Shown one piece after another: positions 4,761 to 30,576 of a stretch of DNA of 64,000 nucleotides (its first letter is position 1; every line of letters begins with the position of its first letter). Where the stretch lies: assembly GCA_001941045.1 (NCBI GenBank), contig MSHD01000035.1:1-64000 (forward strand), read 5' to 3'. The position numbers and the translations under genes were made by a program. The DNA comes from Lachnospiraceae bacterium Zagget2. Lineage in GTDB: Bacteria; Bacillota; Clostridia; Lachnospirales; Lachnospiraceae. The notes under the pieces are model-generated. The model was given only the letters and a program-made list of their open reading frames with translations, did not search any database and was not told the DNA's origin.

Positions 4761-4829
4761 TTGTCAGTACCCCACTCATTTTTCTTATGTAAACGACATG
4801 GCGTCGCCTGCATCTCTCCTCGTTTCGGA

Positions 4830-6926
4830 TTATTCCGAAATCAAATATCCATCGATATCAAATGTATACTCTTTACCGGAAAGCGTGACTGTGCAGTCCG
4901 TGTAATAGCTGCCGTCAGCCAGACGGTATCTCTGACCATAGTCATCCACTTTCCAGCCCTCGATGCTGACTGGCACGGAGGACATAGAATCAATTCTTTC
5001 AATATCGTCATCCTGGAAATGCCACCACTCTGAGACCAGTGACGCCAGTCCGGCGGAGTTCATGATATTCGCCAGGATATTGGCATTCACTTCGTTTCTG
5101 CCGGTGACAGAATACTGGCTCAGGTCATGCATGGAGGTCTGCATAATCATCTCTTCCCCGGTCTCGGCATCCTCGAGCGTCAGATCAACGGCGACTCCGA
5201 CGTTATGCCTGCTTCGTTTCGCAGCCAGGAAAGAACTCAGGTGGTATGACGAACCGCCGTACATAACCTCCGCATAGGTCAGGGAGTTCGTCGTCTCTTT
5301 CAACGTCACGGTTCCGTCTTCATTCACGATTGCCTCTGTCGTGACCGAATTTTCCGGCAATTCCAGCGTAGAGACTGCCACACCGCTCCAGGTCTCCGCC
5401 GGAACCGTCTGACTCAGCAGATTCGTCGCCATGGAATAGAGCGTCTGCGTAGCGACAGCCGGCCGGTAGGACTCGTAAATCCGAAGCCGGTATCCCATAT
5501 CCAGCGCCATCAGAGCCGCATCCATGAGCTTGTCCGCCACCGGATACATGAGCGGCGTCACAAAGGTTCCGTCATTCAGACGGATATTCTCAAAGCCTGA
5601 CACAACCTCACCCGATACACCCGGAAACTCAAACTCATGAACCGTAAAAACAGAATTATAACTGTTGGTGATATCATAGGTGCAGAGATCTCCCAGATAC
5701 TCCGTCAGATTGATCATGCACTGCGTGCTGTCAATATAGCAGGTCTCGCCATTAAACAGAATGCCGAACATGCCATTCGTCTCGTCGACGACACAGTAAG
5801 CCTGCATCGCGCTCACTGTTCCGGCCACCTGCGTCTTCTCCGCGTCCGTATAGGCAGTCAGAGCCAGAACCGGCCAGACCGTGCAGTGGATCGCAGACGC
5901 CTCGGTCTCGCAGACAATCTCCTCCGAGATGGCAAGATAGCTGCTCACAGACTCTGCACCATTGATCTCTTCCGCCACGATCCGATACGTAAAGGTGTCA
6001 AACGAATCCAGATGAGGCGTAGTATAGGTCCGCTCTTCATCGTTCGCAATATATGCGACATTCTCCCAGCTTCCGCTGTCCTTGTTGTAGCGCTGCACAA
6101 CGTAACGGCCGCCCATGGTCTCACTCCAGGTGAAGGTATATTTATTACTGCCCTCTTCGGTAACCTCCACCTCCATATCCTTGCCCAGCAGTGTCGACCG
6201 GCTGATCGTATAGGTGGTAGACGCATATCCAATGTAGGAAAAATCACTTTTTACCCGGCTGGCGCACAGTCCAATGGTGTATGACGACTCAGGAAGCGGC
6301 AGATCGCCGCCCTCCCCGAAACTGATTTCGACGGAATCACTGTTGACCGTCATAACCTCCTCGACCACGTTGCCGTCTTCCAGAAGGCAGACACTGCAGG
6401 AAGCTCCTCCCGTCAGCGTATACATGGCATTCAGCACACCGGTCTCCTCATTCAGATGCCAGCTCGCGTTTGCCAGTCCCAGAGACAGATTTGTAGTAAA
6501 TTTTACGATGGTTCTGGGCAGATTTCCCCCGGTGCGCACACTCAGCGTACACTCGCCGATATCCGCAGTGATCGGAATCCTGCAGCTGTTCGTCTCTACG
6601 GTTGCCTCGAAGGCATTCTTTCCTTCATCGTCACTCCAGCTGGCCTTTACCACATAACTCTCCGCTCCCCGTACTTCCTTCCAGGACAGGACCATAGTGC
6701 CGTCCTCCTGCTCCGCAAGGACGCAGTCATCAGAGGAAACCCCGATCGAACTTCCCCACAAAAACCACCAGACCAGCGCCACGACCAGCACAAGACCCAG
6801 CGTCGCCACCATGGATATCAACGTCGCACGTATACGCGAGAGCATTCTTTTTTTATGTCTTTTTCCTCTGTAGCCCTTTTTCGGCTGCGGCATTTCTTCT
6901 CTCCTCCCGACCCGGTCGGTTCTCAC
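4830..6926 (-). CDS. Membrane-anchored D-Ala-D-Ala carboxypeptidase-like (VanY/M15) protein
   Basis: C-terminal SRHNVGVAVDLTL...SEWWHFQDD motif; N-terminal TM. Confidence 0.8.
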   Translation of the reverse strand: MRTDRVGRREEMPQPKKGYRGKRHKKRMLSRIRATLISMVATLGLVLVVALVWWFLWGSSIGVSSDDCVLAEQEDGTMVLSWKEVRGAESYVVKASWSDDEGKNAFEATVETNSCRIPITADIGECTLSVRTGGNLPRTIVKFTTNLSLGLANASWHLNEETGVLNAMYTLTGGASCSVCLLEDGNVVEEVMTVNSDSVEISFGEGGDLPLPESSYTIGLCASRVKSDFSYIGYASTTYTISRSTLLGKDMEVEVTEEGSNKYTFTWSETMGGRYVVQRYNKDSGSWENVAYIANDEERTYTTPHLDSFDTFTYRIVAEEINGAESVSSYLAISEEIVCETEASAIHCTVWPVLALTAYTDAEKTQVAGTVSAMQAYCVVDETNGMFGILFNGETCYIDSTQCMINLTEYLGDLCTYDITNSYNSVFTVHEFEFPGVSGEVVSGFENIRLNDGTFVTPLMYPVADKLMDAALMALDMGYRLRIYESYRPAVATQTLYSMATNLLSQTVPAETWSGVAVSTLELPENSVTTEAIVNEDGTVTLKETTNSLTYAEVMYGGSSYHLSSFLAAKRSRHNVGVAVDLTLEDAETGEEMIMQTSMHDLSQYSVTGRNEVNANILANIMNSAGLASLVSEWWHFQDDDIERIDSMSSVPVSIEGWKVDDYGQRYRLADGSYYTDCTVTLSGKEYTFDIDGYLISE

Positions 6927-9231: not shown

Positions 9232-9328
9232 TTAATCCATGCACTTTCCCTGCACGCCCGTGTCGAACTCCGGATTCATGATATAGAAATTATTGGCGTC
9301 GAGATGATCCTGCACGATACGCAGAGCT
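9232..9328 (-). CDS. cotJC: cotJC segment 4 of 4 (C-terminus)
   Basis: Minus strand encodes ALRIVQDHLDANNFYIMNPEFDTGVQGKCMD*; continues in frame from segment 3 (RFGE). Confidence 0.93.
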
Positions 9329-9330
9329 TC

Positions 9331-9353
9331 GCCGAAACGGGCGGATGCAAGTA
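9331..9353. repeat. Element 3 left att arm
   Basis: gccgaaacgggcggatgcaagta; inverted match to 18772-18794 (inner 21 bp 18/21). Confidence 0.85.
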
Positions 9354-10877
9354 TCAAATACTCCACGTGATTTCCATCTTTCCGTCCGCGATCGTGATCA
9401 CGTTAATCAGAATATCCGCCACGGCCTTCCTCTGCTCAAAACTGCAGGTCTCCCATTTCGCAGCGGGATTGATCAGCGGTGTAGTCTGCTCGTCCGGCGC
9501 GGCAGTCAGCGCCCCTATCTCCTCCTGAAGTCTCTTCTTCTCCGCATCCAGCGCCTCCACATGTTCTCCGATGTAACGCAGTAAGACCGCATTGGCATCA
9601 ACGGTCTTTGCCAGCAGCTCCTGAATCTCCTTCTCAATCCCCGCCAGCCGAATCCGTTTCTCATTGATCTGCGGATCAGCGCAGCGCTCCTCCGGGCCTG
9701 CAGGCACGGGGAATTCCGCCAGCCGCTCCCCTATCGCGCGATGCACATATTCCTCCAGCACCTCCGCATAGACTGTGCAGAGCGTTCCCCGGCACTTCTC
9801 CTTCTTCGTCGCAAGCGCTGCACTGCAGACAAAATAGCGCTGCCGCCTGGTATTCGCCTTCGCAATTGTCAGGCTGTGACCGCACCTGCCACATTTAACC
9901 TTGCCGGAGAGCCAGGAATTCTTCGCCCCGCAGGTTCTGGTGGAGCGGCGATTCTGAAGGCAGCGCCGCCTGCATTTCAGCCATACATATGAAGAGACAA
10001 GCCCCTCATGGGGCGCGAGCACGATCTCCTTGTCGCGCAGGTCGCCCTGACGGCGCGAAGTCGATACGGTTCCCTGATAAAGATAACAGGCATTGTAGCC
10101 GGTAAAGTCAGAAACCGGATTAACGATATTCGCCCCCTGCTCCCGGAAAAAATCATAGACGTCCATATCCGCCCGCACATAGACCGGATTACGCAGCATC
10201 TCGCTCAGCCGCGCCGTCGTCCACGTCCCACCGCGCAGATGGCGAAACCCCCGCTCGTTAAAATCAGCGATAATATCTCCCAGCGAATTTTCAGGATCTG
10301 CGTACAGCTCATACATCCGGCGTATCTGCTCCGCCTCCTCCGGAACCGGGACATACATGGAGGTTCTGACACCATCGATCACCGTATCTGTCTTCGCAAA
10401 ACCGTAGGGAATCCGCCCTCCCATATAGAAGCCGCGCCGGCAGCGCGCATAGTAGGCGTCGGTCACGCGCTTCTGTATCGTCTCCCGCTCCAGCTGCGCA
10501 AAGACGATGCAGATATTGAGCATTGCCCGGCCGATCGGCGTGGAGGTATCAAAACGCTCCGTGGAGGAGACAAACTCCACGGAGTATTTTTGAAACACGT
10601 CCATCATATTGGCGAAGTCCAGGATCGAGCGGCTGATCCGGTCCAGCTTGTAGACGATCACCCGCGCGATCTTCCCCTGCCGGATATCCCCCAGCATCTC
10701 CTCAAAGGCCGGACGATTCGTATTTTTGCCGCTGTAGCCCCGGTCTGCGTATTCCCGATACGGACCGCCGTGAGTCTCACAGCGGCAGTATTCCAGCTGG
10801 CTCTCGATCGAAATGCTGTCTGCCCGCTCCACAGACTGGCGGGCGTAAAGGGCATCGTAATATGTGGCTCTTTCCAT
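9354..10877 (-). CDS. Large serine recombinase of element 3
   Basis: 507 aa: YARQSVERADSISIESQ resolvase start, YKLDRISRSILDF, recombinase domain, CGRCGHSL zinc-ribbon, coiled coil. Confidence 0.93.
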   Translation of the reverse strand: MERATYYDALYARQSVERADSISIESQLEYCRCETHGGPYREYADRGYSGKNTNRPAFEEMLGDIRQGKIARVIVYKLDRISRSILDFANMMDVFQKYSVEFVSSTERFDTSTPIGRAMLNICIVFAQLERETIQKRVTDAYYARCRRGFYMGGRIPYGFAKTDTVIDGVRTSMYVPVPEEAEQIRRMYELYADPENSLGDIIADFNERGFRHLRGGTWTTARLSEMLRNPVYVRADMDVYDFFREQGANIVNPVSDFTGYNACYLYQGTVSTSRRQGDLRDKEIVLAPHEGLVSSYVWLKCRRRCLQNRRSTRTCGAKNSWLSGKVKCGRCGHSLTIAKANTRRQRYFVCSAALATKKEKCRGTLCTVYAEVLEEYVHRAIGERLAEFPVPAGPEERCADPQINEKRIRLAGIEKEIQELLAKTVDANAVLLRYIGEHVEALDAEKKRLQEEIGALTAAPDEQTTPLINPAAKWETCSFEQRKAVADILINVITIADGKMEITWSI

Positions 10878-10935
10878 CTAAAGATCCTGCTCTTCTCACA
10901 TGAAATGTTATATTTTATGCTTTTTTGTACAGAAA

Positions 10936-10977
10936 GAAGCACCGGACACCCTGTCGGGGGCCCGGCGCTTCTTTTTC
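10936..10977 (-). terminator. Terminator of the dipeptidase gene
   Basis: AAGAAGCGCCGGG...CCGGTGCTTCTTT hairpin. Confidence 0.65.
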
Positions 10978-10979
10978 GC

Positions 10980-11969
10980 CTAGTCCATGGCATCTTCCAT
11001 CACACGGATTACATTCTTATAAAATATCTTCTCGATCTCTCCTCCGCTGAAGCCTTCCTTTGACAGTGCATCCTCCAGCAATGACATTTTCGAGCAGTCA
11101 GAAATCTGAAGATTCCCGCTGATTCCGTCCAGGTCCGAGCCGATTCCCACACAGTCGATACCGCCGACATTCGCCATATGGCGTGCATGGCGGGCCATCA
11201 GAGCCGCCGTGCTGTCCTTGCAGCTGATGTCTTTGTTCAGGAATTCCGGTCCAAAATTGATCCCGGCCACACCGCCCGCTTTTCCCAGCGTCCGGATCAT
11301 CTCATCTGTCAGGTTCCTGCGGTGCGGACTTAAGGCACGCGCGTTGGAGTGCGTTGCGACGAAGGGTTTTCTGCAGATATCCGCAACGTCATAGAAGCCC
11401 CCGTCAGACAGATGGGATACGTCCACCAGCATTCCCAGATCCTGCATGTAGCTGACGGCCTCTTTTCCAAAGTCTGTAAGACCGCTGGTCATGATCTCCC
11501 GGTCATCGGAATTCGGCGCGCCAAAGCAGTTCGGTTCGTTCCAGGTCAGCGACAGGGCGCGGAAGCCCTGATCGTAGAATTCCTTCAGCTTTTCCATTCT
11601 GCCGTTTACGGCGCGACCATCCTCCATACTCAGAATCGCAGACATTTTCCCGGCCTTTTTATTTTGTCTTACCTCGTCAGCATTTGCAGCCAGGGCGATC
11701 ATCTCCGGATGCCTTGCCAGATTATCCTGCAGATATGTCCGCAGCGTCTGAATATATACCTCATCCTCCATGGCTTCCAGACCCAGCGCACCATACATTC
11801 TCTTTGGCGGGAGAAATACTGCAAAAAACTGCGCCAGCTGCCCCGCCTCTTCCATTCTCCTGAAATCTACCGCTATGACCCCGGAGTCGTAGAGGTCCGC
11901 TTTTTCCCTGTCCCGCAGAAGCAGCATGGACAGGGAATCACAGTGCATATCGATAAACATTGTCTTCAT
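10980..11969 (-). CDS. Membrane dipeptidase (M19 family)
   Basis: MFIDMHCDSLSM, VDVSHLSDGGFYDV, THSNARALSPHRRNLTDEMI, VGIGSDLDGI. Confidence 0.9.
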   Translation of the reverse strand: MKTMFIDMHCDSLSMLLLRDREKADLYDSGVIAVDFRRMEEAGQLAQFFAVFLPPKRMYGALGLEAMEDEVYIQTLRTYLQDNLARHPEMIALAANADEVRQNKKAGKMSAILSMEDGRAVNGRMEKLKEFYDQGFRALSLTWNEPNCFGAPNSDDREIMTSGLTDFGKEAVSYMQDLGMLVDVSHLSDGGFYDVADICRKPFVATHSNARALSPHRRNLTDEMIRTLGKAGGVAGINFGPEFLNKDISCKDSTAALMARHARHMANVGGIDCVGIGSDLDGISGNLQISDCSKMSLLEDALSKEGFSGGEIEKIFYKNVIRVMEDAMD

Positions 11970-12029
11970 CGATTAAACCCTCCAGAACATTTTTCTCAAT
12001 GCGTTTCCGCACTTTCATCAAGCCTGCAG

Positions 12030-12443
12030 TCACGCCTGAATTCCCACGATGGTCACAATCTGCCCGCGCGGGGTGTTGATATCCGCCTTCATGGCTGACT
12101 GCAGATTCAGTGCCACCGGAAAGCGCATACCACTCACATTGCCGGAAAGGTAACCCATATAGGTTCCGGCGCTTCCCAGGACCGGCCAGTAGGCCAGCGG
12201 TTCCGTCACCCAGACTCCGAAACAGAAAACGCAAAGTGCGACGATTACATTAATATAATCCGTAACAGGTGTCGTATAGCCCTTCACAATCAGAAAATAA
12301 GCAGTCGGAAGGAAAGAGAAAAACAGAGCCACCACCATGGTGATCCGTCCGATTCTGTGTACATTCGGCACAAATTCCGCCGTGTAAGCATCCTGCGCTT
12401 CGGCTTCTCTGCTTTCTGTGTTTGTCGTATTCATTTCACTCAT
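12030..12443 (-). CDS. Small membrane protein, partner of the DUF5058-like gene
   Basis: 137 aa with hydrophobic segments, adjacent to and co-directional with 12456-13157. Confidence 0.55.
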   Translation of the reverse strand: MSEMNTTNTESREAEAQDAYTAEFVPNVHRIGRITMVVALFFSFLPTAYFLIVKGYTTPVTDYINVIVALCVFCFGVWVTEPLAYWPVLGSAGTYMGYLSGNVSGMRFPVALNLQSAMKADINTPRGQIVTIVGIQA

Positions 12444-12455
12444 TCTTCTTTTCCT

Positions 12456-13157
12456 TTACATCAACACCGTAATAAGCTGGCCAACAACCATCGCCGCAAT
12501 CATGGCAATCGCCATGCCAAAGCTGGCAAGTCCCTTTACTTTATTTCCAAGCAGTATAATCAGATAGCAGACCACTGCTGATGTGATCGCTGCGACCACC
12601 TTTACCGGCGTGTTCACATATGACATCATCATATATCCCAGAATTGCCATCATCGCTGCCTTCGACATATAGGGGACAAAGCTGCGGCCACCGCTCTTTT
12701 TGCTTTTCTCCGTTGCATTATCCAGAGGTTTCAGCGTAATAATTGTGTTGAGCATATAAGGCGCAGACGCCAGCGTCATTCCAAAAAGGCAGAGCACTAA
12801 AACGGCCGGTGTAAATGCTTCCGTCCCGAACTCGACCCCCATCGTACTGGAGCACAGACTTGCTATCATCAGTTCAAAAACCGGCGCGCCGATCACCCCG
12901 CAGCGCATAAACGCAGCTCCCGAGCCAATCAGAACGATCAGAGACAGCAGCACTGACAGCACAGAAATCGAGGGCCCTACCGCCGCCAGCGCTCCTGTCT
13001 TTGCAGCCTGTCCGATTTCTTCCTGCGTGACCACTTTATGTTTCTTATTAAAATTCAATGCCAGGCGCAGGAAAAGCAGAGCCTGAACGACGACATTGAC
13101 AATCAGCAGAATTGCAAATACCCATACTGTTCCATTTACCGTTGCAATTGTGTCCAT
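12456..13157 (-). CDS. DUF5058-like integral membrane protein
   Basis: 233 aa polytopic; family name by resemblance only. Confidence 0.6.
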   Translation of the reverse strand: MDTIATVNGTVWVFAILLIVNVVVQALLFLRLALNFNKKHKVVTQEEIGQAAKTGALAAVGPSISVLSVLLSLIVLIGSGAAFMRCGVIGAPVFELMIASLCSSTMGVEFGTEAFTPAVLVLCLFGMTLASAPYMLNTIITLKPLDNATEKSKKSGGRSFVPYMSKAAMMAILGYMMMSYVNTPVKVVAAITSAVVCYLIILLGNKVKGLASFGMAIAMIAAMVVGQLITVLM

Positions 13158-13179
13158 GAGTTCCTCCTATTCTATTCTC

Positions 13180-14391
13180 TTATCTTGTTGTCTGTTCATA
13201 TTCTTCGATCGCTCTCGCGATACGGTCGATGGCCTCAAGAATGACCGCCTTCGGGCTGGTGAGACAAAGACGGAGATAATGTTCTCCCTGCTCCGGATCA
13301 TGAGCAAGCCCGCCCTGAATCGCAACATTTGCGAGATGATTGACAATATACTGAAGCGTATCCGCCGGGTAACCATAGCCGGAGAAATCAACCCACAGAA
13401 TATAGGTGCCTTCCGGAACATATGCCGTCGCATTCGGCAGCTTTTTCTTCAGATAATCGACCGTTTCCCTTATGCTCTCGTCGAGATAAGCGTTCAGCGC
13501 ATCCAGCCAGTCTTCGCTCTCATTGTACGCAGCCGTCATGGCTGCAATCGAGAAGGGGGACGGCATTTCCGTCGCATAATCGGCGCAGAACCGCGCCCGG
13601 AGCTTATCATCCGGGATTACTGTGTAAGCGCACTGCAATCCCATCAGATTAAAGGATTTATTGACGCCGGAAACCATCACGAGATTGCTGCGGTCGGCAC
13701 ATGCGTCAATCACAGGGATGTGTTTCACCCAGGAGCGAACCAGATCCGAATGAATTTCATCTGAAGCGAGAATCACATGATTTTCACGGCAGATCTTCGC
13801 CATGCGCGCCAGCTCCTCTTTCGTCCAGACCCGTCCCACAGGGTTTTCCGGAGAGCAGAGCACATATACCTTGTTTTCCGGCTCGGCGCAGAGCTGTTCA
13901 AACTTCTCCCAGTCCATCCGGTAATCGCCTGGAGACGGCTGCAGCATCTGACAGTTCACAACCCGCCGTCCCAGCCTCTGAATCGTCGATGTGAAATTGC
14001 TGTAAACCGGGCGGCACAGAATGATACCGTCTCCCGGAGAAGAAAATGCCCGGATCGACTGCCCGATTCCGTCCAGCGCCCCGCTGCAGTGCACAATCCA
14101 CTCTCTCTTCAGCTCCACTCCGAACCTGCGCTGATACCATGAGATAATAGCCCCGCGATATTCATCGGAGGCTTCGTCCGTGGTATAGCCGAAGGTGCCG
14201 AAATCCGCCACGCGGTGAAGCGCCCGTGTGATCGCCGGAGCGCACTGGAAATCCATATCCGCGATCAACAGACGGATGCTGTCCTCATCAAGCCGCAAAT
14301 CCGGAACAAGCCTCCAGAAATACTTTCTGTCGTCATACTTCATGGAATAGGTCCCTCTGCGGTCCACAGACTGATCAAAGTTAAACTGCAC
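13180..14391 (-). CDS. MalY/PatB-type PLP aminotransferase (C-S lyase)
   Basis: CSPENPVGRVWTKEEL, SDEIHSDLV, SGVNKSFNLMGLQ. Confidence 0.9.
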   Translation of the reverse strand: MQFNFDQSVDRRGTYSMKYDDRKYFWRLVPDLRLDEDSIRLLIADMDFQCAPAITRALHRVADFGTFGYTTDEASDEYRGAIISWYQRRFGVELKREWIVHCSGALDGIGQSIRAFSSPGDGIILCRPVYSNFTSTIQRLGRRVVNCQMLQPSPGDYRMDWEKFEQLCAEPENKVYVLCSPENPVGRVWTKEELARMAKICRENHVILASDEIHSDLVRSWVKHIPVIDACADRSNLVMVSGVNKSFNLMGLQCAYTVIPDDKLRARFCADYATEMPSPFSIAAMTAAYNESEDWLDALNAYLDESIRETVDYLKKKLPNATAYVPEGTYILWVDFSGYGYPADTLQYIVNHLANVAIQGGLAHDPEQGEHYLRLCLTSPKAVILEAIDRIARAIEEYEQTTR

Positions 14392-14564
14392 AAATTCACT
14401 CCCTTTCTCCGCCTTCTAATGCAGGCTTTTTGTTTTAGCATCTAAAATATTTGTTCGAACAAAAGGCGCACTTTTTAGCACCTAAAATAATATTACTGAA
14501 AAGTATCACCTCTGTCAACAGAAATTATTGTTTTTTATCGATTTTGCCAAAAAACCTGCGGATT

Positions 14565-15053
14565 TTACTCACCTGTAAACCACCTGCACATGTACGACTC
14601 ATAATCGCGGATCATCTCCAACTGCTCTTCCGTAAATTGATGGAGATAGGTCTGATCCAGATTTTTGTATCGATCACAGTCATATTTCAGATGCTCCCAG
14701 TAAAAATCTTTTCCCTTCCCCGTAAGTGTGACGATCGTTTCCCTGCGGTTGGAAGGATTTTTTGAGCGGGTTATATATCCTTTTTTTTCAAGGCGAGCGG
14801 CAATCTGGGACACCGCACCATGGGACACCGCCAATGCCTCCGCGATCTCCGACATGGTCGCCCCGTCATCGGGCTTTACTGCGAGCATAAAGTGCGCTTC
14901 CCGCATGTAGATAAAATCATCCGTATTATAACCGCGACTTGCATTCATATACTGTGTGAATTCCTTGGTCGAGATGGCTTTCAATTCCAGAATTTCGCTG
15001 ATCAGACGTATACGCGGTTCAATATTATCAGGATAATACATAGAGACCTCCAT
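14565..15053 (-). CDS. MarR family transcriptional regulator
   Basis: wHTH MSEIAEALAVSHGAVSQIAARLEKKGYI. Confidence 0.9.
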   Translation of the reverse strand: MEVSMYYPDNIEPRIRLISEILELKAISTKEFTQYMNASRGYNTDDFIYMREAHFMLAVKPDDGATMSEIAEALAVSHGAVSQIAARLEKKGYITRSKNPSNRRETIVTLTGKGKDFYWEHLKYDCDRYKNLDQTYLHQFTEEQLEMIRDYESYMCRWFTGE

Positions 15054-15207
15054 TTACTGCTTTCTGACATTTATCATACGCGATTGATTTCGTAAAAGCA
15101 AGAATGCTTCTTGCATTATAGCAAAATTTATAATAATATGTTAGTATCTAAATCGTGAGTTACTTAAGCGCAAGAACATTCCCCGCATTGACAGGAGGAA
15201 AAAGAAA

Positions 15208-16416
15208 GTGAAATATGACTTTACTTCTATTATGAATCGCCGCGGCGAGGACGCGATTGCGGTAGACGCAGTCGGTATTGCCAGGAGTCCTGTTCCCGGC
15301 CCGAAAGATGGCTTTGATGCAATTCCCATGTGGGTGGCGGATATGAATTTCCCTGTATTTCCGGGGATTCAGGAAGCCATAGCGGGCAGGATTCAGAAGG
15401 CGCACTTTGGATACTTTCGTCCAAGGCAGGAATATCTGCAGGCGATTATCCGCTGGCAGGAGACGCGGAACGATGTAAATGGACTTAATGAGGAGCATCT
15501 TGGATATGAAAACGGCGTACTCGGCGGGGTGATCAGCGCGCTGAATACCCTCTGCTCCCGGGGAGACAATATTCTTCTTCACTCTCCCACCTACGTCGGT
15601 TTCATCAACAGCCTTACAAATAATGGCTATCACATGGTTCTCTCCCCGTTGGTGCTGGACGAGAACGGCGTCTGGCGCATGGACTATGAGGACATGGAGA
15701 AAAAAATTGTGGAGAATAACATTCACGCGACCGTGTTCTGCTCGCCGCACAATCCCTGCGGGCGTGTATGGGAAAAATGGGAACTGGAGAAAGCCTTTGC
15801 CTTGTTTGAAAAATATGATGTAAAAGTGGTTTCGGACGAAATCTGGTCGGATATCATCCTGAACGGCCACAGACACACGCCATCACAGAGCGTCAGCGAC
15901 TGGGCCAGGCAGAATACCGTCGCCCTGTATGCTCCGTCCAAGACCTTCAATCTGGCAGGGCTGGTGGGCTCCTATCATATTATTTACAACAAGACGCTGC
16001 GCGACCGTGTCGATAAAGAATCCTCGCTGTCGCATTATAATAACATGAACGTGCTGTCCATGTATGCGCTGATCGGCGCGTACTGTCAGGATGGCGGGCA
16101 ATGGGTCGATGAACTGCGCGAAACGCTCAGCGGCAATGTGAATTATGCTTATGACTACATCAAAACGCATTTCAGGGGTGTGGAGCTTGCCAGACCCGAG
16201 GGCACCTATATGCTGTTCCTGGACTGCAGTAAGTGGTGCGAGGAATATGGCAAAACGATCGACCAGCTGCAGCGCTCCGGCTTCGATGTCGGCGTCGTCT
16301 GGCAGGATGGGCGGAATTTCTATGGTCCCTGCCATATCCGTATGAACCTGGCGCTTCCGCTTACAAGGGTGCAGGAAGCCATGGAGCGCCTGGACAGGTA
16401 CGTGTTTAACGCATAG
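15208..16416 (+). CDS. Second MalY/PatB-type PLP aminotransferase
   Basis: MWVADMNFP, SPHNPCGRVWEKWEL, SDEIWSDIIL, APSKTFNLAGL. Confidence 0.9.
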   Translation: MKYDFTSIMNRRGEDAIAVDAVGIARSPVPGPKDGFDAIPMWVADMNFPVFPGIQEAIAGRIQKAHFGYFRPRQEYLQAIIRWQETRNDVNGLNEEHLGYENGVLGGVISALNTLCSRGDNILLHSPTYVGFINSLTNNGYHMVLSPLVLDENGVWRMDYEDMEKKIVENNIHATVFCSPHNPCGRVWEKWELEKAFALFEKYDVKVVSDEIWSDIILNGHRHTPSQSVSDWARQNTVALYAPSKTFNLAGLVGSYHIIYNKTLRDRVDKESSLSHYNNMNVLSMYALIGAYCQDGGQWVDELRETLSGNVNYAYDYIKTHFRGVELARPEGTYMLFLDCSKWCEEYGKTIDQLQRSGFDVGVVWQDGRNFYGPCHIRMNLALPLTRVQEAMERLDRYVFNA

Positions 16417-16444
16417 AAATACAAAAATTACAGGAGGAACGAAC

Positions 16445-17212
16445 ATGGAAGTAAATCAGATTGTTTTCAGCCCAACCGGAGGAACGCAAAAGGTCGCGGA
16501 TATTCTTACAGCGGAATGGAGCGAAACTGTTGACAGGATTGACCTGAGTGATCCCCGAACTGATGATACCGCCCTGCATTTTGAACAGGACGATCTCGCT
16601 GTTATCGCGGCTCCGTCTTTTGGCGGACGCGTGCCTGCTCTTGCGGCTGAACGGCTTGCGAAAATAAACGGTAACGGAGCCCGTTGCGTTGTCGTCTGCG
16701 TCTATGGAAACCGCGCGTATGAAGATACCCTGCTTGAACTGAGCGATCTTGCGGAACAGAGTAATTTCAGGGTTCTTGCCGCCATCTCCGCGGTTGCGGA
16801 GCATTCCATCATGCATCAGTACGCTGCTGGCCGACCGGATCAGCAGGACCAGAAGGAATTGCGCAGCTTTGCCGGAAAAATTCTGGAAAAATCGAAAAAC
16901 TGCGGCGCTGAAATACCCGCATTACAGATACCCGGCAATCGCCCCTATAAAAAGGGAGGCAGCATGGGACTGGTGCCAAAAGCAGACAGTAAATGTGTTG
17001 ACTGCGGTCTTTGCGCTGAAAAATGTCCGGCGCAGGCCATCAGCAGGGACAATATCAGAACCGCGGACAGTAAAAAGTGCATTTCCTGTATGAGATGCGT
17101 GGTTCAATGCCCACAGTCCGCCCGCAAATTGAATGCAGCGGTGGTTTCGGCTGCGGCGCTGGCGATGAAGAAGGTCTGTTCTGTAAGGAAAGAGAATGAA
17201 CTATTTATTTAA
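16445..17212 (+). CDS. EFR1-like flavodoxin/ferredoxin protein
   Basis: N-terminal flavodoxin-like FSPTGGTQKVAD; two 4Fe-4S motifs CVDCGLCAEKCP and CISCMRCVVQCP. Confidence 0.85.
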   Translation: MEVNQIVFSPTGGTQKVADILTAEWSETVDRIDLSDPRTDDTALHFEQDDLAVIAAPSFGGRVPALAAERLAKINGNGARCVVVCVYGNRAYEDTLLELSDLAEQSNFRVLAAISAVAEHSIMHQYAAGRPDQQDQKELRSFAGKILEKSKNCGAEIPALQIPGNRPYKKGGSMGLVPKADSKCVDCGLCAEKCPAQAISRDNIRTADSKKCISCMRCVVQCPQSARKLNAAVVSAAALAMKKVCSVRKENELFI

Positions 17213-17383
17213 AGACTGATCCGGTTTGTCTGCAAAAACCGTAAAGAGCTGCCTTCCGATGTCAGCCTTTACGGTTTCTCTTTCTTCCTCTGTATAGCCG
17301 GGACGGCGCTCGATCACCTCAAGCTGCATGTTCTGCTCGGAGATCGCCGCCCTCTTACTCTCATAAAATGGTCTGTCTTTCAT
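17201..17383 (-). CDS. 60 aa hypothetical protein (candidate element-borne small factor)
   Basis: ORF MKDRPFYESKRAAISEQNMQLEVIERRPGYTEEERETVKADIGRQLFTVFADKPDQSLNK. Confidence 0.5.
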   Translation of the reverse strand: MKDRPFYESKRAAISEQNMQLEVIERRPGYTEEERETVKADIGRQLFTVFADKPDQSLNK

Positions 17384-17434
17384 GTTTTATCTTATGAAAG
17401 ACGGCCTGTCCGTAATTCTCTCAGGATAGCTGCT

Positions 17435-17902
17435 TCATGACACTGGCAGTTCCATCTCGTCCTCCATTTTTACAAAGCCATATTTCTCATACAGGGGTCT
17501 GCCCATCTGTGTCGCCTCCAGGGAGATCGCGGTGATTCCCTGCTTTCTGGCATCCTGGACCAGCAGATCCAGCGTGTGCAGGGCGATACCTCTTCTGCGG
17601 TACGCGGGATCCGTATACATGTTCATGATATAGGCCTTCTTCCCGCTCGGATTGTGGTACGTCGGCATGACCTGAAAGAAGCTCACGCCGCCTGCTCCGA
17701 CCGGGCATTCTCCGTCGAAAACCAGATAAGCAATGTGGGAGCCGTCCTGCAGCGCTTCCTGATAATAATGATACGATTCCCTTGCCACCTCGCTCATATC
17801 AGCGTCATCGGACAGCCGGTTTGCTGCCCGCAATACCCGGATCCTGGTTTCCGTCAGCAGATCGAGGTCCTCTATTGTAGCTCTTTTATATATCAGGTTC
17901 AT
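17435..17902 (-). CDS. GNAT family N-acetyltransferase
   Basis: MNMYTDPAYRRRGIALHTLDLL acetyl-CoA binding motif. Confidence 0.88.
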   Translation of the reverse strand: MNLIYKRATIEDLDLLTETRIRVLRAANRLSDDADMSEVARESYHYYQEALQDGSHIAYLVFDGECPVGAGGVSFFQVMPTYHNPSGKKAYIMNMYTDPAYRRRGIALHTLDLLVQDARKQGITAISLEATQMGRPLYEKYGFVKMEDEMELPVS

Positions 17903-18137
17903 CCTGTGCGCTCCCGTCTTTTTTCTTTATTGAACCTATTGTACGCGATATCGGCGTGTGATTCAATTACTGAAAATGACATCCGTCTAAAACTCCGGAA
18001 CTTTTATTAAAAGCTATTGGAAACGCGAAGGTTTTGGCTTATAATGTTTTTCGGATCCGATCATGCCACAAATATATCATGTTTGTTTTCTGAAAAATAA
18101 ACTTTCGTTGTCAAATCATATAGGAAGGAGAGCAAGT

Positions 18138-18764
18138 ATGAACCAAAAGGAACGAATGCTGGCGGGACTGCCATACAAGGCCTGGCTGGACGGCCTGGAG
18201 GAGGAACGCGAACAGTGCAAGCAGAAAATCTACGAATTCAATATGCTGCCGCCTTCCGGGCGCGACCGCATCCCGGCGCTACTGAAGGATCTGTTCGGAA
18301 AAACCGGCGAAGAGCTCTGGATCGAGCCGCCGTTTCACTGCGACTATGGCTGGAATATCGAGGTGGGCGAAAACTTTTTCGCCAATTATAATCTGACAAT
18401 TCTGGACGTAGGCAAGGTCACGATCGGCAAAAATGCCCAGATCGCGCCGAACGTCTCTATCTATACGGCGGGACACCCGCTTCACCCTGATAGCCGCAAT
18501 TCCGGCTATGAATATGGCATTCCCGTCACCATCGGCGACAACGTCTGGATCGGCGGCGGAGCGATCATCCTGCCCGGCGTGACGATCGGCGACAATGTGG
18601 TGATCGGCGCGGGCAGCGTCGTCGGAAAGGACATTCCCGACAATATGCTCGCCGCCGGGAATCCCTGCCGGATTATCCGGGAGATCACGGAGGAATACCG
18701 GAAATATTATTTCAAACAGCGGGAATTTGATGAAGAATCCTGGGAGGAGATCTCCGGAGTCTGA
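18138..18764 (+). CDS. Maltose/galactoside O-acetyltransferase-like hexapeptide transferase
   Basis: RBS ggaaggag then MNQKERMLAGLPYKAW; hexapeptide repeats. Confidence 0.9.
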   Translation: MNQKERMLAGLPYKAWLDGLEEEREQCKQKIYEFNMLPPSGRDRIPALLKDLFGKTGEELWIEPPFHCDYGWNIEVGENFFANYNLTILDVGKVTIGKNAQIAPNVSIYTAGHPLHPDSRNSGYEYGIPVTIGDNVWIGGGAIILPGVTIGDNVVIGAGSVVGKDIPDNMLAAGNPCRIIREITEEYRKYYFKQREFDEESWEEISGV

Positions 18765-18771
18765 GAACTTT

Positions 18772-18794
18772 TACTTCCATCTTCCCGTTTCGCT
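18772..18794. repeat. Element 3 right att arm
   Basis: tacttccatcttcccgtttcgct, inverted relative to 9331-9353. Confidence 0.85.
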
Positions 18795-18911
18795 TCACCG
18801 AAGCGCTGGAAGTGCACGACCTCACGCGCCCGCAGGAAGCGCAGGGGATCGAGGACTTCCGGATCCTGAATGATGCGGATCAGATTGTCGTAGGTTGTGC
18901 GCGCTTTCTGC
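18795..18911 (-). CDS. cotJC: cotJC segment 3 of 4
   Basis: Minus strand encodes (E)QKARTTYDNLIRIIQDPEVLDPLRFLRAREVVHFQRFGE. Confidence 0.93.
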
Positions 18912-18913
18912 TC

Positions 18914-18935
18914 TGCTGCGATCGTGTAAAAACAA
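18914..18935. repeat. Element 2 left att arm
   Basis: tgctgcgatcgtgtaaaaacaa, inverted relative to 25353-25374. Confidence 0.85.
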
Positions 18936-18937
18936 AC

Positions 18938-20152
18938 TCAGTTCCACTCCTCTGCCAGCAGAAAATCACGAATATTAAAGTGCCTGATTCCGTCCCGGCT
19001 CATGTCCAGTTCATCCATCGTGACGACATATTTGGGAAAATTATCACGGATAGCAGCCAGGGCGCCAAACTCCCGCCGAACCGTCTCCTCCGAAGCAAGC
19101 AGATAGGAAACCTGGACATACAGCTTTCTGCTCTGATATTCACATACGAAATCGACCTCTCTGCCGGACAGTTTTCCGATGGTGACAGAATAGCCACGGC
19201 GCAGCAGCTCCATAAAAACAATATTTTCCAGGACCAGCTGAATGTCTTTCGTATTGCCGCCAAACACGGCCTCCCGGATACCATGATCGGCAACATAGTA
19301 TTTTTTGTTGACGGTCAGTATCTTTTTGCCCTGCAGATCCTGCCGTTTCACCCGGTAAAACAAAAAGGCGTCCGTACAGGCTTTGATATAGTTGAGTACT
19401 GTTTCCGTCGACACCGGGCGTCCTTCGTTTTTCAAGTATCTGGAAATAGCTGTAGCGGAAAACGTGGTACCGACATTGGCAGTAAGATAAGCAATAATTC
19501 GTTCCAGCATATCCACATCCCGGATATTATTTCTCCTGACGACATCCTTCAGCTCGACAGAGTTGAACAGATCGCGCAGATACTGGCGGCTGGCCACATC
19601 GTCATAACGAAGGTTGGCAAGATAGGGCATTCCGCCCAGCGTCAGATACTTTGTGAAGCACTGTCTGTCGTCTGCGTCCGGAAAAACGCTGTGATACAGC
19701 TCCCGAAACTCCCCAAATGAGAACGGATAGATCACAAATTCTACATAACGCCCGGCAAGGTAAGTAGCCAGCTCTCCGGAGAGCAGTCTGGCATTGGAAC
19801 CGGTAATATAAATGTCACAATCCAATTCTACGCGAAAAGAATTGATACACTTTTCCCAGTCTGTCACTTCCTGTATTTCATCAAAAAACAAATAAACCTT
19901 GCCGCCGATTTTCTCCGCCTGATGAATAATCTCCTCATGCAGGGCAGAAGCGCTGCAAAGCTGTGCGTTGCTCATATTCTCAAAATTCAGGGAAATGAAC
20001 TGCCCCGGATCAATACCGTTCTCGATCAGCTCCTCCTGAATGAGCTGCAGCATGACGGACTTACCGCTACGGCGGATACCGGTCAGAACCTTGATCAGCT
20101 CATTCCCGATAAAAGGCCGGATACGGCTCATATAGGCTTCCCGTTTTATCAT
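18938..20152 (-). CDS. AAA ATPase of the DUF4143 type
   Basis: LTGIRRSGKSVMLQLI Walker A, LFFDEIQEV Walker B, C-terminal VDFVCEYQSRKLYVQV. Confidence 0.88.
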   Translation of the reverse strand: MIKREAYMSRIRPFIGNELIKVLTGIRRSGKSVMLQLIQEELIENGIDPGQFISLNFENMSNAQLCSASALHEEIIHQAEKIGGKVYLFFDEIQEVTDWEKCINSFRVELDCDIYITGSNARLLSGELATYLAGRYVEFVIYPFSFGEFRELYHSVFPDADDRQCFTKYLTLGGMPYLANLRYDDVASRQYLRDLFNSVELKDVVRRNNIRDVDMLERIIAYLTANVGTTFSATAISRYLKNEGRPVSTETVLNYIKACTDAFLFYRVKRQDLQGKKILTVNKKYYVADHGIREAVFGGNTKDIQLVLENIVFMELLRRGYSVTIGKLSGREVDFVCEYQSRKLYVQVSYLLASEETVRREFGALAAIRDNFPKYVVTMDELDMSRDGIRHFNIRDFLLAEEWN

Positions 20153-20321
20153 AAAGGACCTCTCCCTTCCAGGATTTCCAATATATTTTATCACTATTAT
20201 ATCTGATTTTCAACGCAAAAATCATTTTTTATAAGTTACAACTGATAAAACTACGTTTTTGACATAATTCGGCAGGTACATCGTTGTAACTATATCATGG
20301 GGCGAATGGAAGAAGATTCGT

Positions 20322-21125
20322 TTAACAAAAGTAGTTAAGGTAGATCATGGCAGCACCCAGGAGCGTCAGAATCACGCCCGTGACCCTGCCCACGGTCTTG
20401 TTGTTCACACGGTTTGCGAACTGGGCGGAGACATGAGACGTCGCCGTCGCGGTGACGATGCAGATGATCAGCACGGGCCAGCGTTCCAGCACGATGGCCG
20501 GGTGAATCAGCGAATGACTGATAAAACCGATCAGGGCGGTGAAGGTCATAATGAAGGTGCTGGTGCCCACCGCAGTTTTCAGATCATAGCCCAGGAACGC
20601 CGTAAAGACGACCAGCATCATCATACCGCCGCCGGTCCCCACGAATCCTGTGCCGAAGCCAATCGTCAGGCCGAAAAACAGAGATATGAGAATCTCCTTC
20701 CAGCCCAGCCGCACATGGGAGGCGTCCGCTCCCTCCTTCGAGGTGTCCGGTTTAAGCAGAAAACGAATGCCGATGCAGAAGGTCAGGATCAGGGTGAAGC
20801 CGCCCAGCACCACATTTCCCACCAGATAGGCGGCATAGCTGCCGACCGCGCTGAGTCCGATGATGCAGACCAGCATGACCCAGCCATGCTTTAAATCAAT
20901 TCGCTTATTTTTCGCGTAGACGGAGGTCGTCACAGCCGAGCCCAGGATGTCCGACGCCAGCGCGATGGCCGTCGCCTGATACGCGCCGTACTCGCCGCCA
21001 AAGGAGGGGCAGAGCACGATCAGAATCGGGACCATCACTGTCGCCGCGGACAGACCGGCCAGGCCGGTGCCGACGCCAGCGCCCAACGCCGCAATAATAT
21101 ACCAGAAATATTCCATAACTATCAC
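20322..21125 (-). CDS. TSUP family transporter (TauE/SafE-like)
   Basis: Polytopic; GFGTGFVGTGGGMMMLVVF and VGTSTFIMTFTALIGF motifs. Confidence 0.85.
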   Translation of the reverse strand: MIVMEYFWYIIAALGAGVGTGLAGLSAATVMVPILIVLCPSFGGEYGAYQATAIALASDILGSAVTTSVYAKNKRIDLKHGWVMLVCIIGLSAVGSYAAYLVGNVVLGGFTLILTFCIGIRFLLKPDTSKEGADASHVRLGWKEILISLFFGLTIGFGTGFVGTGGGMMMLVVFTAFLGYDLKTAVGTSTFIMTFTALIGFISHSLIHPAIVLERWPVLIICIVTATATSHVSAQFANRVNNKTVGRVTGVILTLLGAAMIYLNYFC

Positions 21126-21127
21126 CT

Positions 21128-21571
21128 CTACTCAGGCCATTGAAAGCAATACTTTCCTTTTCCGTAGCCAGACACCGGTCTGGTAACGCCGGTTTCTGCC
21201 ATCTGACGCAGCAGGGCCGAGCTTCTTGTCTCCTTCAATCCAAGCACACGCTGAACATCTGACCTGCCAAAGATCGTCTGAAAGCCGAATGCCTCGAACA
21301 GTTTCTGAACATGAGCCGCGGTCTTCGGCGTAAGTCGCCCTTCTATGTTCACTTTTTCCACTGTGTAGAAAGTTCCGCTGATGTGCAGGCTCCGGTTATG
21401 AAGCGGATGTTTCTCATTCAGCAGAAGATTGCGCAGAAATCGCTCCAGATACTCCGATGTTGTCAAGCCATCGACTGCCTGCAGGCCGATGGCCGTGTGC
21501 CACGCGTAACCCTTATCCCGTTTGTCCGGCTCGGACTCTCTCATATATTCCTGAAACGGATCCTGCTTCAC
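21128..21571 (-). CDS. Fic-protein-associated fragment or small wHTH protein
   Basis: YMRESEPDKRDKGYAWHTAIGLQAVDGLTTSEYL resembles the N-terminus of Fic-family proteins; the FIC motif is absent. Confidence 0.5.
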   Translation of the reverse strand: MKQDPFQEYMRESEPDKRDKGYAWHTAIGLQAVDGLTTSEYLERFLRNLLLNEKHPLHNRSLHISGTFYTVEKVNIEGRLTPKTAAHVQKLFEAFGFQTIFGRSDVQRVLGLKETRSSALLRQMAETGVTRPVSGYGKGKYCFQWPE

Positions 21572-21669
21572 TTTTTTGTCACCTCGCTGCCCCTCTCCTG
21601 TATTTTACCCCAGAACAGAAGAGAAAGAAAGGGATTCTTTCATCTGGGGAAATCGATTGGATAACGCTG

Positions 21670-22744
21670 TCAAATACAAAATGCAGCGTAAAGCGGCACC
21701 GTCTTTTTGTCGTCTTCAAATCCAAAGTTTTTCGAGGAGAGCTTGATCGCGTATGCGGGCTGATAGCGCTTCAGGCTCTTTGCCCTGGTATTGTCAGCCG
21801 ACTTCACTTCGATGGGAATGAGCTGACCGTCGCGCTGAATAATAAAATCGATCTCGACGCCGCGCTCGGACACCCAGTAAAAAGTCCGGTAGCCGTTGAT
21901 GGACAGTTGTACATTGACATAGTTTTCCGCCATGCCACCCTTAAAATCGTTTATCTCGTCCACCATGTAGAGAACATCATTCGCCGCCAGGTCTTTCTTT
22001 GCACAGAGCAGCCCCATATCCGACACATAAATTTTAATAGCGTCAATATCGCGGTAATTTTCCAGCGGCTTTTTGATCTGCTCCGCCTTAAATACACGCG
22101 ATACAATACCCGACAGGCAGAGCCATTCAATCGCGTTTTCAAATTCGGACGCCCGCGCCCCCTTTTTGATCAGTTTGTATTGAAAACGGGTGTTTTTTCT
22201 GGAAAGCTGGACGGTAATGCTGTCATAGGCAAGCCGGATTTTCTTAATCTCATTCAGATTGTTGTACTTGCTCATATCATTCAGATAACTGGCGAGTATC
22301 GTGTCCTGTGTATGGCGAAGCAGGATGTAATCCTTCGTATCCACAAACTGCAGGACACATTCGGGCATGCCTCCCACGACCAGATATTGACGGTAAAGCT
22401 GCATGGCCGCATCGTGCAGCGCCGCAGGCAACGGCGTATTCTTCTCAAAGCAGCTCCGGATCTGCTCCACCAGCTTCCCTTCTCCACAGGCCAGAAGGAA
22501 CTCCTCCATATCCATCGGGTAGAGAGTCTTCATATCCACCTTGCCGACCGGAAACGAGAATTTTGCCCTGTTTACGGCAACGCCGAGCAGGCTGCCCGCC
22601 ACAATCACATGATAGTCCGGCGCGTCCGAACTCCAGAATGGACCATGTCTTGCCCACCTGCCTTGCTCCCTGCAGAATCAGGGGCTCGTTATAAATCAGT
22701 ATAATGGACCAGCCCAGGCACATAACATATACCGACATTTCCAA
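21670..22744 (-). pseudogene. Degraded DUF4143-type AAA ATPase
   Basis: Walker-A part (PLILQGARQVGKTW) and C-terminal part (VAGSLLGVAVNR...GVEIDFIIQRDGQLIPIEVK) lie in different frames with intervening domain missing. Confidence 0.7.
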
Positions 22745-22759
22745 AAAGGAGCCACGCCG

Positions 22760-22891
22760 GTGTCAGAAAAACCCGCCACCACCATCTGCAAAAGCGTTTT
22801 CAAAGGCGGCGAAAACGCCATTTCCAGAGAGGACTTCACCAGAATATGGATTGAAATCATCAGCCGTCTGGAAAGGACAAAGCATTCATGA
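22760..22891 (+). CDS. 43 aa ORF translationally coupled to the element 2 recombinase
   Basis: aaaaaggag RBS, GTG start, SEKPATTICKSVFKGGENAISREDFTRIWIEIISRLERTKHS; stop overlaps recombinase ATG (ATGA). Confidence 0.65.
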   Translation: MSEKPATTICKSVFKGGENAISREDFTRIWIEIISRLERTKHS

Positions 22892-24441
22892 AGGCAGCGA
22901 TTTACTGCCGCCTGTCCGAGGAGGACCGCGACAAGCGCCATGAGGGCGACGACTCCGCCAGCATCCAGAATCAGAAGTCCATGCTGCTGCAATACGCCAT
23001 GGAGCAGGGATGGGAGGTTTTCCAGATTTACAGCGACGACGACTATGCCGGCTCCGACCGACGGCGACCCGGATTTCAGCGCCTGTTGCACGACGCCGAG
23101 CAGCGCAGATTCGACGTCGTGCTCTGCAAGACGCAGTCCCGCTTTACCCGCGAGCTGGAACTCGTGGAGAAATACATTCACGGACTCTTTCCCCTCTGGG
23201 GCATCCGCTTTGTCAGTATCGTCGACAACGCGGACACCGCCAACAGGGGAAACAAGAAGTCTCGGCAGATCAACGGCCTCGTCAACGAATGGTATCTGGA
23301 GGATATGTCGGAAAATATCCGCAGCGTCCTGACGAACCGTCGGCAGAACGGTTTCCACATCGGCGCCTTCGCCCTCTACGGCTATCGCAAGGACCCGGAA
23401 CACAAGGGACACCTTCTCATCGACGAGGAGGCCGCCACCGTCGTCCGCGAGGTGTTCACGCTTTACTCCAAGGGCTGCGGCAAGACCGCCATCGCCCGCC
23501 TGCTCAACGAGCGAGGCGTCCCGAATCCGACGGAATACAAGCGTCTGTGCGGCCTGCGCTACCGGCAGCCAAAGAGCCGCAGCGGCACACTCTGGAAATA
23601 CAGCGCCATCTCCTCCATGCTGGTCAACGAAATCTATATCGGCAACATGGTACAGGGAAAATACGGCAGTCTTTCCTATAAGACACGGCAAAACAGGCCC
23701 CGTCCAAGAGAGGAATGGATCATCGTCGAGGGGACGCACGAACCAATCATCGAGCGGGAACTGTGGGATCGCGTGCAGAGCCTGATAAAACAAAAGGCGA
23801 AGCCCTTTGCGGGCGGCAGCATCGGTCTGTTCGCAGGGAAAGCCCGCTGCATGAACTGCGGCTATACTCTGCGCTCCACCGCCAGCCAGGGCAGACACTA
23901 TCTGCAGTGTCCGAACCGTCACCTTGCAAAGGACGCCTGCGCCGGCGCTTTTATTTCCATTGACAGACTGGAGCGGCTTGTCAGGGAGGAGCTGAACCGC
24001 CTGACCATGAAATATCTGGACCTCGCAGTGCTGGAACAGGAAGTCACCTTTTGTGATGATTTGCAGGAGCAAAAGAGCCGTCTTCTCTCCGACCTGGCTC
24101 TCTGGGAAAAGAGAAAGGCCGAATACGGCAAAGCTATCCGCGAGCTCTATCTCGACAAGGTCCGGGGGCTCCTCTCCGAAAGCGATTATCTGGAAATGTC
24201 CGAAGATTTCAACACCTCCCGCGAGCGCTTTGCACACCGGATCGCGGACGGGAAAAGAAAGTTGTCAGAAATGGAGGAGTTCCGCGAAACAGACGGGACC
24301 CGCCGCGAACGAATCGAGCAATCCCTGCACCCGCAGCGCCTGAGCCGCGAGTTCGTCGACACACTGATCGACCACATCTTTGTCGGTAAAAGGATTCCGG
24401 GCAGCCGCGACGTCCCCGTCGAAATCCACTGGAATTTTTAA
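22888..24441 (+). CDS. Large serine recombinase of element 2
   Basis: 517 aa: MKAAIYCRLSEEDRDK, YSDDDYAGSDRRRPGFQRLL, zinc-ribbon CMNCGYTL, coiled coil. Confidence 0.95.
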   Translation: MKAAIYCRLSEEDRDKRHEGDDSASIQNQKSMLLQYAMEQGWEVFQIYSDDDYAGSDRRRPGFQRLLHDAEQRRFDVVLCKTQSRFTRELELVEKYIHGLFPLWGIRFVSIVDNADTANRGNKKSRQINGLVNEWYLEDMSENIRSVLTNRRQNGFHIGAFALYGYRKDPEHKGHLLIDEEAATVVREVFTLYSKGCGKTAIARLLNERGVPNPTEYKRLCGLRYRQPKSRSGTLWKYSAISSMLVNEIYIGNMVQGKYGSLSYKTRQNRPRPREEWIIVEGTHEPIIERELWDRVQSLIKQKAKPFAGGSIGLFAGKARCMNCGYTLRSTASQGRHYLQCPNRHLAKDACAGAFISIDRLERLVREELNRLTMKYLDLAVLEQEVTFCDDLQEQKSRLLSDLALWEKRKAEYGKAIRELYLDKVRGLLSESDYLEMSEDFNTSRERFAHRIADGKRKLSEMEEFRETDGTRRERIEQSLHPQRLSREFVDTLIDHIFVGKRIPGSRDVPVEIHWNF

Positions 24442-25374: not shown

Positions 25375-25689
25375 TCTGCTGCAAGGTCCTCATTGAGATC
25401 GGTAATCGCGTCGCCGGTAGACTGAAACTCGTTCGCCGTCCACGGCACGCCGCCTGCCGACTGCGGCCAGAGCCCGCCGGTGTGGTCCACATAGTAGGCC
25501 GGAAGGCCGGATTCCCTGAGCTGCTCCATCGACATGTTCTTCGTGAGCTGATAGATGATGGCCCAGACGATCTCGAGGTGGGCTAACTCTTCCGTGCCGA
25601 TATCTGTCAGCACAGCCGCGCACTCCTTATAAGGCATCGTGTACCTCTGTGAGAGGTAGCGCATGCTCGCACCCAGCTCTCCATCGGGA
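25375..25689 (-). CDS. cotJC: cotJC segment 2 of 4
   Basis: Encodes PDGELGASMRYLSQRYTMPYKECAAVLTDIGTEELAHLEIVWAIIYQLTKNMSMEQLRESGLPAYYVDHTGGLWPQSAGGVPWTANEFQSTGDAITDLNEDLAA. Confidence 0.95.
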
Positions 25690-25691
25690 CC

Positions 25692-25713
25692 TCCGAATCG
25701 CGGCAGGTTATAC
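25692..25713. repeat. Element 1 left att arm
   Basis: tccgaatcgcggcaggttatac; inverted match to 29989-30010 with one mismatch. Confidence 0.92.
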
Positions 25714-25869
25714 ACTGCCACCCATTTTCTTCCTCTGTCTTTCCAGTTCCTTCTGCATCCGTCGTAGCAAGACTTTCTTCTCTCGCTCTGTGAGACTCTC
25801 CCAGCGTCTCTCGCCCTGCTCCGTGGCAATGTGCGAAGGAAGCGCCGTCAGTTCCCTCGATCTTCCCAT
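25708..25869 (-). CDS. 53 aa basic protein, candidate recombination directionality factor
   Basis: GGAGAGAGT-ATG; MGRSRELTALPSHIATEQGERRWESLTEREKKVLLRRMQKELERQRKKMGGSV*; divergent from the recombinase; stop lies inside the att arm. Confidence 0.5.
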   Translation of the reverse strand: MGRSRELTALPSHIATEQGERRWESLTEREKKVLLRRMQKELERQRKKMGGSV

Positions 25870-29988: not shown

Positions 29989-30010
29989 GTATAACCTGCC
30001 GCGATCCGGA
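29989..30010. repeat. Element 1 right att arm
   Basis: gtataacctgccgcgatccgga. Confidence 0.92.
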
Positions 30011-30102
30011 CCTCCGAACTGGGAGATGATCAGTTTTGCCATCTCCGGATTGGGATTGGTAATGTTTACGGGATACTCCAGTCTCTTCTCATAATTCCAC
30101 AT
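30011..30102 (-). CDS. cotJC: cotJC segment 1 of 4 (N-terminus)
   Basis: ATG at 30102 beside cotJB stop; MWNYEKRLEYPVNITNPNPEMAKLIISQFGG; unexcised frame ends after 54 codons at 29938. Confidence 0.95.
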
Positions 30103-30375: not shown

Positions 30376-30576
30376 CTACCTGCACCCTCCTCTCACGCCG
30401 AGAAACGGCTTATAAAGCTCCGGAAAAATTGTACCGCGGGACAGCCCCTTCTCCAGATCATAAACGGTGTGCCAGTGCTGCCAGGGCACATAGTCCATGG
30501 CGAGCGGATACTCATCCAGACCCATACGCATGGCCATGCCACCGCGATTCGCGGGACATCTCTTAAATTGTTCCAT
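30376..30576 (-). CDS. cotJA: Spore coat associated protein CotJA
   Basis: LAMDYVPWQHWHTVYDLEKGLSRGTIFPELYKPFLG. Confidence 0.92.
   Translation of the reverse strand: MEQFKRCPANRGGMAMRMGLDEYPLAMDYVPWQHWHTVYDLEKGLSRGTIFPELYKPFLGVRGGCR

Follow-up and report, generated by a model that had tools for sequence, protein, structure and literature searches.

How does a bacterium make a spore-coat enzyme whose gene is interrupted three times? The question is raised by a stretch of 64,000 nucleotides from Lachnospiraceae bacterium Zagget2 (assembly GCA_001941045.1, contig MSHD01000035.1, positions 1 to 64,000), hereafter the window, in which cotJC, the gene of the coat manganese (Mn) catalase, runs on the minus strand from 30102 to 9232 and is divided among four pieces, F1 to F4, by three serine-recombinase elements. 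Because the same cuts recur in many related species and the pieces are under strong selection, DNA excision very probably rejoins the gene when a spore is formed. The best explanation, in which we place considerable confidence, is a three-element split of cotJC with excision of the elements in the mother cell, restoring a CotJC of 206 amino acids (aa). The pieces and the cores at their ends, at sites named S1, S3 and S4, are as follows (a further site, S2, is filled in relatives).

30103 to 30576, minus strand: cotJB (30103-30375) and cotJA (30393-30576), operon genes upstream of cotJC, named from order and sequence, without family search
30008 to 30102, minus strand: cotJC piece F1, start codon included (joined frame, tblastn)
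30008 to 30018: S1 core, F1 side, TTCGGAGGTCC
25687 to 25697: S1 core, F2 side, TTCGGAGGTCC
25375 to 25697, minus strand: cotJC piece F2 (joined frame, tblastn)
25375 to 25382: S3 core, F2 side, GCAGCAGA
18912 to 18919: S3 core, F3 side, GCAGCAGA
18792 to 18919, minus strand: cotJC piece F3 (joined frame, tblastn)
18792 to 18802: S4 core, F3 side, TTCGGTGAAGC
9326 to 9336: S4 core, F4 side, TTCGGCGAAGC on the cotJC strand, with the arm at 9337-9353
9232 to 9336, minus strand: cotJC piece F4, C-terminus, stop codon 9232-9234 (tblastn 79% to intact CotJC; joined frame)

Fusing F1 to F4 in silico at their common cores (TTCGGAGGTCC at S1, GCAGCAGA at S3, TTCGGYGAAGC at S4) gives a single open CotJC frame of 206 aa with no stop. 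The pieces match the Mn-catalase family PF05067, and alignment to 1jku sets E35, GTEELAH, E136 and H169 on Mn-catalase ligand positions. By context cotJC is a sporulation gene, with cotJA and cotJB upstream and an intact SpoIVA gene in the same genome. No second Mn-catalase gene occurs in the 3.34-Mb genome, and a dispensable split copy backed by a second, intact cotJC is thereby ruled out. The large serine recombinases of S1, S3 and S4 (RA, RB and RC) all carry Resolvase, Recombinase and Zn-ribbon domains in Pfam, and their serine motifs are intact. Neither the open reading frames (ORFs) read nor a Pfam scan of ten proteins showed any phage structural or replication genes.

The S4 element had been singled out by an earlier note on this DNA as the third and largest insertion in cotJC, and so it is: core-to-core it measures 9466 bp, against 4321 bp for S1 and 6463 bp for S3. 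The direct repeat GCTTC(G/A)CCGAA was found at 9326-9336 and 18792-18802 as described, and so was the circle junction TACTTGCATCCGCCCGTTTCGGC-GA-AGCGAAACGGGAAGATGGAAGTA, whose palindromy is reached in 8 of 5000 windows drawn at random from the same sequence (0 and 2 of 5000 for the junctions of S1 and S3). The predicted excision product HFQRFGEALRIVQD is in frame, and the 507-aa recombinase does have its stop codon at 9354-9356, immediately past the left arm. By the note, its reading would fall if the C-terminal fragment at 9232 belonged to a different gene. Two close relatives, G001 and G011, speak against that, with S4 empty while S1 and S3 are filled and the same stretch running uninterrupted across the empty site; in G001 it is followed by genes of the HAD and LysA-like kinds, as in the window. 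The reading of the whole as a recombinase element inserted in cotJC and able to restore the gene is supported by the 206-aa frame, the empty S4 sites and selection on every piece, as well as by site-specific recombinase clades and recurrence in Lachnospiraceae, Oscillospiraceae and Anaerotignaceae.

In a set holding one genome per species, cotJC is split in 14 of the 15 members of the genus that have a CotJC match (the window counted). Across the family, 126 of 200 genomes have such a match and 74 have none; in at least about 40 of the 126 the pieces end at the same places, a few of which may be contig ends. Aligned to 1jku, the S1 cut falls at FGGP, three codons ahead of ligand E35, the S2 cut at GTEELAH, with ligands E66 and H69, the S3 cut at AAE, which contains ligand E148, and the S4 cut at FGEA, four codons past H181. 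Judged by these alignments, four cut sites are fixed across many genera, at or adjoining metal-ligand codons.

Some relatives show further arrangements. Genome G016 has pieces ending at S1, S2, S3 and S4 (loci L059 and L060), such that all four sites may be filled together; its S2-S3 piece was not on the contigs examined. A 2.5-kb S2 element (L047 in G005, 3741-6244) extends scarcely beyond its recombinase gene and comes near the minimal size of an element. A second, intact cotJC paralogue stands beside the split copy at L061 (G010:C28) and L062 (G007:C16).

Every cotJC piece is under strong purifying selection, and the gene is therefore not decaying. The ratio of nonsynonymous to synonymous substitution rates (dN/dS) is 0.02-0.07 for whole split copies within the closest species groups. 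Taken piece by piece, start-less pieces included, it is 0.00-0.09 in four species split at S1 and S3 and 0.01-0.06 in three species split at S1; RA and RB give 0.10-0.19. That ordinary mobile elements broke cotJC for good, leaving the pieces as pseudogene remnants, is accordingly very improbable. Some cargo has indeed decayed, such as the fragmented DUF4143 gene and other genes in G001, and the 74 genomes of the family without a CotJC match would suit such a loss. Pseudogene decay is nevertheless rejected by the low ratios on every piece across species with common splits, and it sits badly with pieces free of stops, recombinases under selection, and cores and arms that still match. The same open and selected pieces could also be expected if they were expressed separately, with the protein put together from its fragments, or if the joining took place in the RNA. 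This we consider barely credible, since F2 to F4 lack the start codon of the gene and run into attachment (att) arms, and the intervening DNA encodes DNA recombinases and bears palindromic att sites. No intein or group II intron protein was seen in the translations and Pfam results, intron RNA not having been searched for.

The recombinases themselves are divided by site. In trees of 49 and then 60 sequences there is a single clade for each of S1, S3 and S4 and a pair of clades for S2, and none of 200 shuffles clustered the site labels as strongly. A long-branch warning applies where one S2 clade meets S4; because long branches meet there, the relation between the site clades is unreliable, the clades themselves standing. 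A search for relatives of RB used recombinase peptides only as queries and was for that reason free of cotJC bias. Among the 80 loci kept, 75 adjoin a cotJC cut at S3, at the same codon, including Roseburia faecis M72, Anaerotignum lactatifermentans DSM 14214, Blautia sp. An249, Parablautia intestinalis, Clostridium fessum and Flintibacter muris; the remaining five sit on short contigs or at, or close to, the end of a contig. This single target, with a DUF4368 match that stays below threshold (23.7 vs 25 bits in Pfam), led us to reject RB as a multi-targeting DUF4368 transposase of the TndX-like type. RB relatives on IMG/VR contigs frequently adjoin cotJC, on what are then chromosomal stretches. 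An origin from known phages was also rejected, RB and RC matching phage integrases at less than 60% identity only.

The S4 element contains, besides its cores:

9354 to 10877, minus strand: RC, large serine recombinase, 507 aa (Pfam Resolvase, Recombinase, Zn_ribbon; relatives at S4 in five other loci)
10980 to 18764: cargo, comprising an M19 dipeptidase, a DUF5058 membrane protein, two PatB-like aminotransferases and MarR-like, ferredoxin-like, GNAT-like and maltose-acetyltransferase-like genes (here and below, cargo names without a Pfam result were read from translations)
17201 to 17383, minus strand: 60-aa ORF, weak candidate directionality factor, resembling ORFs by RC-like recombinases at L176 and L210

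The five RC-like recombinases (L040, L175, L176, L182 and L210) are 39-52% identical to RC. Scores of the 60-aa ORF against the L176 and L210 ORFs were reached by 0 and 4 of 2000 shuffles. Two Campylobacter jejuni plasmids (AP025982.1, 16967-18460; NZ_CP028186.1, 60771-62264) carry a recombinase 48% identical to RC, closer than any phage match among the matches listed.

When would excision occur? It is the S3 element that offers an indication, with the following features.

18938 to 22608, minus strand: cargo, namely an AAA_14/DUF4143 protein, a TauE-like permease, a 147-aa protein and a DUF4143 remnant
22701 to 22724, plus strand: sigma-E-type promoter ATA-N17-CATA, upstream of the small ORF and RB
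22760 to 22891, plus strand: 43-aa ORF overlapping the RB start codon, candidate directionality factor
22888 to 24441, plus strand: RB, large serine recombinase, 517 aa
24505 to 25350, plus strand: threonine-aldolase-like cargo gene (family read from translation)

Relatives of the 43-aa ORF, of about 45 aa, precede RB in at least 38 of 81 S3 loci. Of 76 loci, 58 have the motif ATA-N15-17-CATA ahead of RB, where shuffles give 10 and the reverse strand gives 6; conservation of the att arms GTTGTTCTTATATGATT and partner GTAAGAACAAC extends over 61 and 23 loci. Pfam, NCBIfam and PHROGs searches of the small ORFs gave no convincing family. Sigma-E promoters of Clostridioides difficile have ATA at -35 and a CATA-type -10 (PMC3789822), and excision of skin in that species depends on a 72-aa directionality factor, CD1234, under sigma-E/SpoIIID control (PMC5025042). 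By this likeness, the small ORF and the sigma-E-type promoter point to an S3 element cut out in the mother cell with the help of a directionality factor; promoter and analogy together suggest that excision takes place in sporulating cells. The promoter spacer GGAC(TT/AA)GC is likewise kept in the window (22701-22724) and in most other S3 loci, and in some it resembles a SpoIIID site, such that a second regulator may bind.

The S1 element is the smallest of the three.

25708 to 25869, minus strand: 53-aa ORF, candidate S1 directionality factor, conserved in 9 S1 loci of the genus
25925 to 27085, plus strand: RA, large serine recombinase, 386 aa
27058 to 29895, minus strand: cargo TrkH and TrkA, potassium uptake

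The nearest other TrkH relative in the genome is only 24% identical, and there is no other close copy. In G013, of the same genus, an intact cotJC is followed directly by trkA-trkH (L104, 8332-13626), unlike most other members, whose S1 element contains trkAH. One possibility is that the element captured trkAH from a place downstream of cotJC, the other that G013 regained an intact gene.

This cargo bears on whether the excision is terminal. A reversible switch among vegetative cells (phase variation) could be imagined, given that Clostridium botulinum yin is excised at all time points (PMC10747680) and that serine recombinases are also capable of integration. We consider it unlikely, for what is interrupted is a spore-coat gene, a sigma-E-type promoter precedes the S3 operon and growing cells would lose their only close TrkH copy.

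Several observations weigh against programmed excision in the mother cell. The excised S4 junction is absent from the assembly, and the two S4 core copies differ at one wobble base. Selection on each piece could in part predate later insertions. Sigma-E-type promoters ahead of the S2 and S4 recombinases are not above chance, the S1 recombinase has a doubtful promoter match too near the start codon to trust, and the S1 and S4 small ORFs are conserved less widely than that of S3.

On this account, each element (4.3, 6.5 and 9.5 kb) encodes a large serine recombinase specific for a single one of the four conserved cotJC stretches. In the sporulating mother cell every recombinase would be produced together with a small directionality factor, and recombination between attL and attR at TTCGGAGGTCC, GCAGCAGA and TTCGGYGAAGC would release three circles and restore the 206-aa frame. 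The forespore would retain the split chromosome, and we propose that inheritance of the elements and of what they carry, the only close TrkH copy among it, is secured in this way. We infer excision itself, its restriction to the mother cell, what the small ORFs do and how the three events were ordered.

Going further, we lean towards viewing cotJC as an ancient multi-site landing gene, with four fixed ligand-codon sites, one or two dedicated recombinase lineages for each, and all elements discarded by a mother cell that is itself doomed. Up to four programmed deletions would then have to precede production of the spore catalase, and host genes like trkAH, retained in the spore line, would be lost from the mother cell.

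Programmed splitting in sporulation is known for a handful of genes (sigK, spsM, spoVFB, gerE and yabG; PMC10747680, PMC5595907), mostly with one element per gene and in few strains. Here one coat gene is split at four fixed active-site stretches in many genera of gut Clostridia, and each site has one or two recombinase lineages. Should excision be confirmed, it would rank with the most widespread DNA rearrangements of bacterial development. It would account for cotJC genes that look truncated to annotation pipelines, supply recombinases with conserved, inferable att sites and offer a natural setting in which to test what makes such elements persist. The S3 element is present in cultured strains, so this can be tested now. 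No report of a split cotJC was found in the literature searched, most subscription papers and preprints lying outside its scope.

Like cotJC, sigK serves sporulation and is interrupted by an element, skin, that encodes a large serine recombinase (SpoIVCA in Bacillus subtilis; CD1231, with the directionality factor CD1234, in C. difficile), and for S3 only the likeness extends to a small ORF under a sigma-E-type promoter. The target of skin is a sigma factor, whereas cotJC encodes a coat enzyme and holds three elements in one gene, with no phage genes seen. The gin element in gerE of Bacillus cereus ATCC10987 (GirC, GirX) shares a non-phage nature, a serine recombinase and a short core, and has a small accessory factor where the cotJC elements have candidates; its gene is reconstituted in sporulation, as we infer for cotJC, but gin is one 28.6-kb element with three recombinases in place of three elements with one each (PMC5595907). 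The yin element of C. botulinum V73 also splits a clostridial coat-related gene, yabG, with a recombinase and a putative small directionality factor; it was reported as unique to one strain, whereas the cotJC elements recur at fixed codons across families (PMC10747680).

Outside sporulation, the heterocyst elements of cyanobacterial nifD, hupL and fdxN likewise come several to a gene (four in Rivularia nifD) at recurring positions and are lost in a terminally differentiated cell, comparable to the mother cell proposed here; they belong to another phylum and cell type and mix tyrosine and serine recombinases (PMC4874684). The NCBIfam model XisF was matched only far below its cut-off. In the survey of large serine recombinases by Durrant et al. 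(2022), diverse enzymes converge on one conserved coding site, as they do here; that work, whose main text leaves catalase unmentioned, concerns integration targets, and cotJC by contrast is disrupted yet still selected (PMC10083194). The principle is thus known, since split sporulation genes and a multi-element nifD have been reported. The cotJC target, its four fixed positions, the dedicated lineages and their breadth are, as far as we have seen, new.

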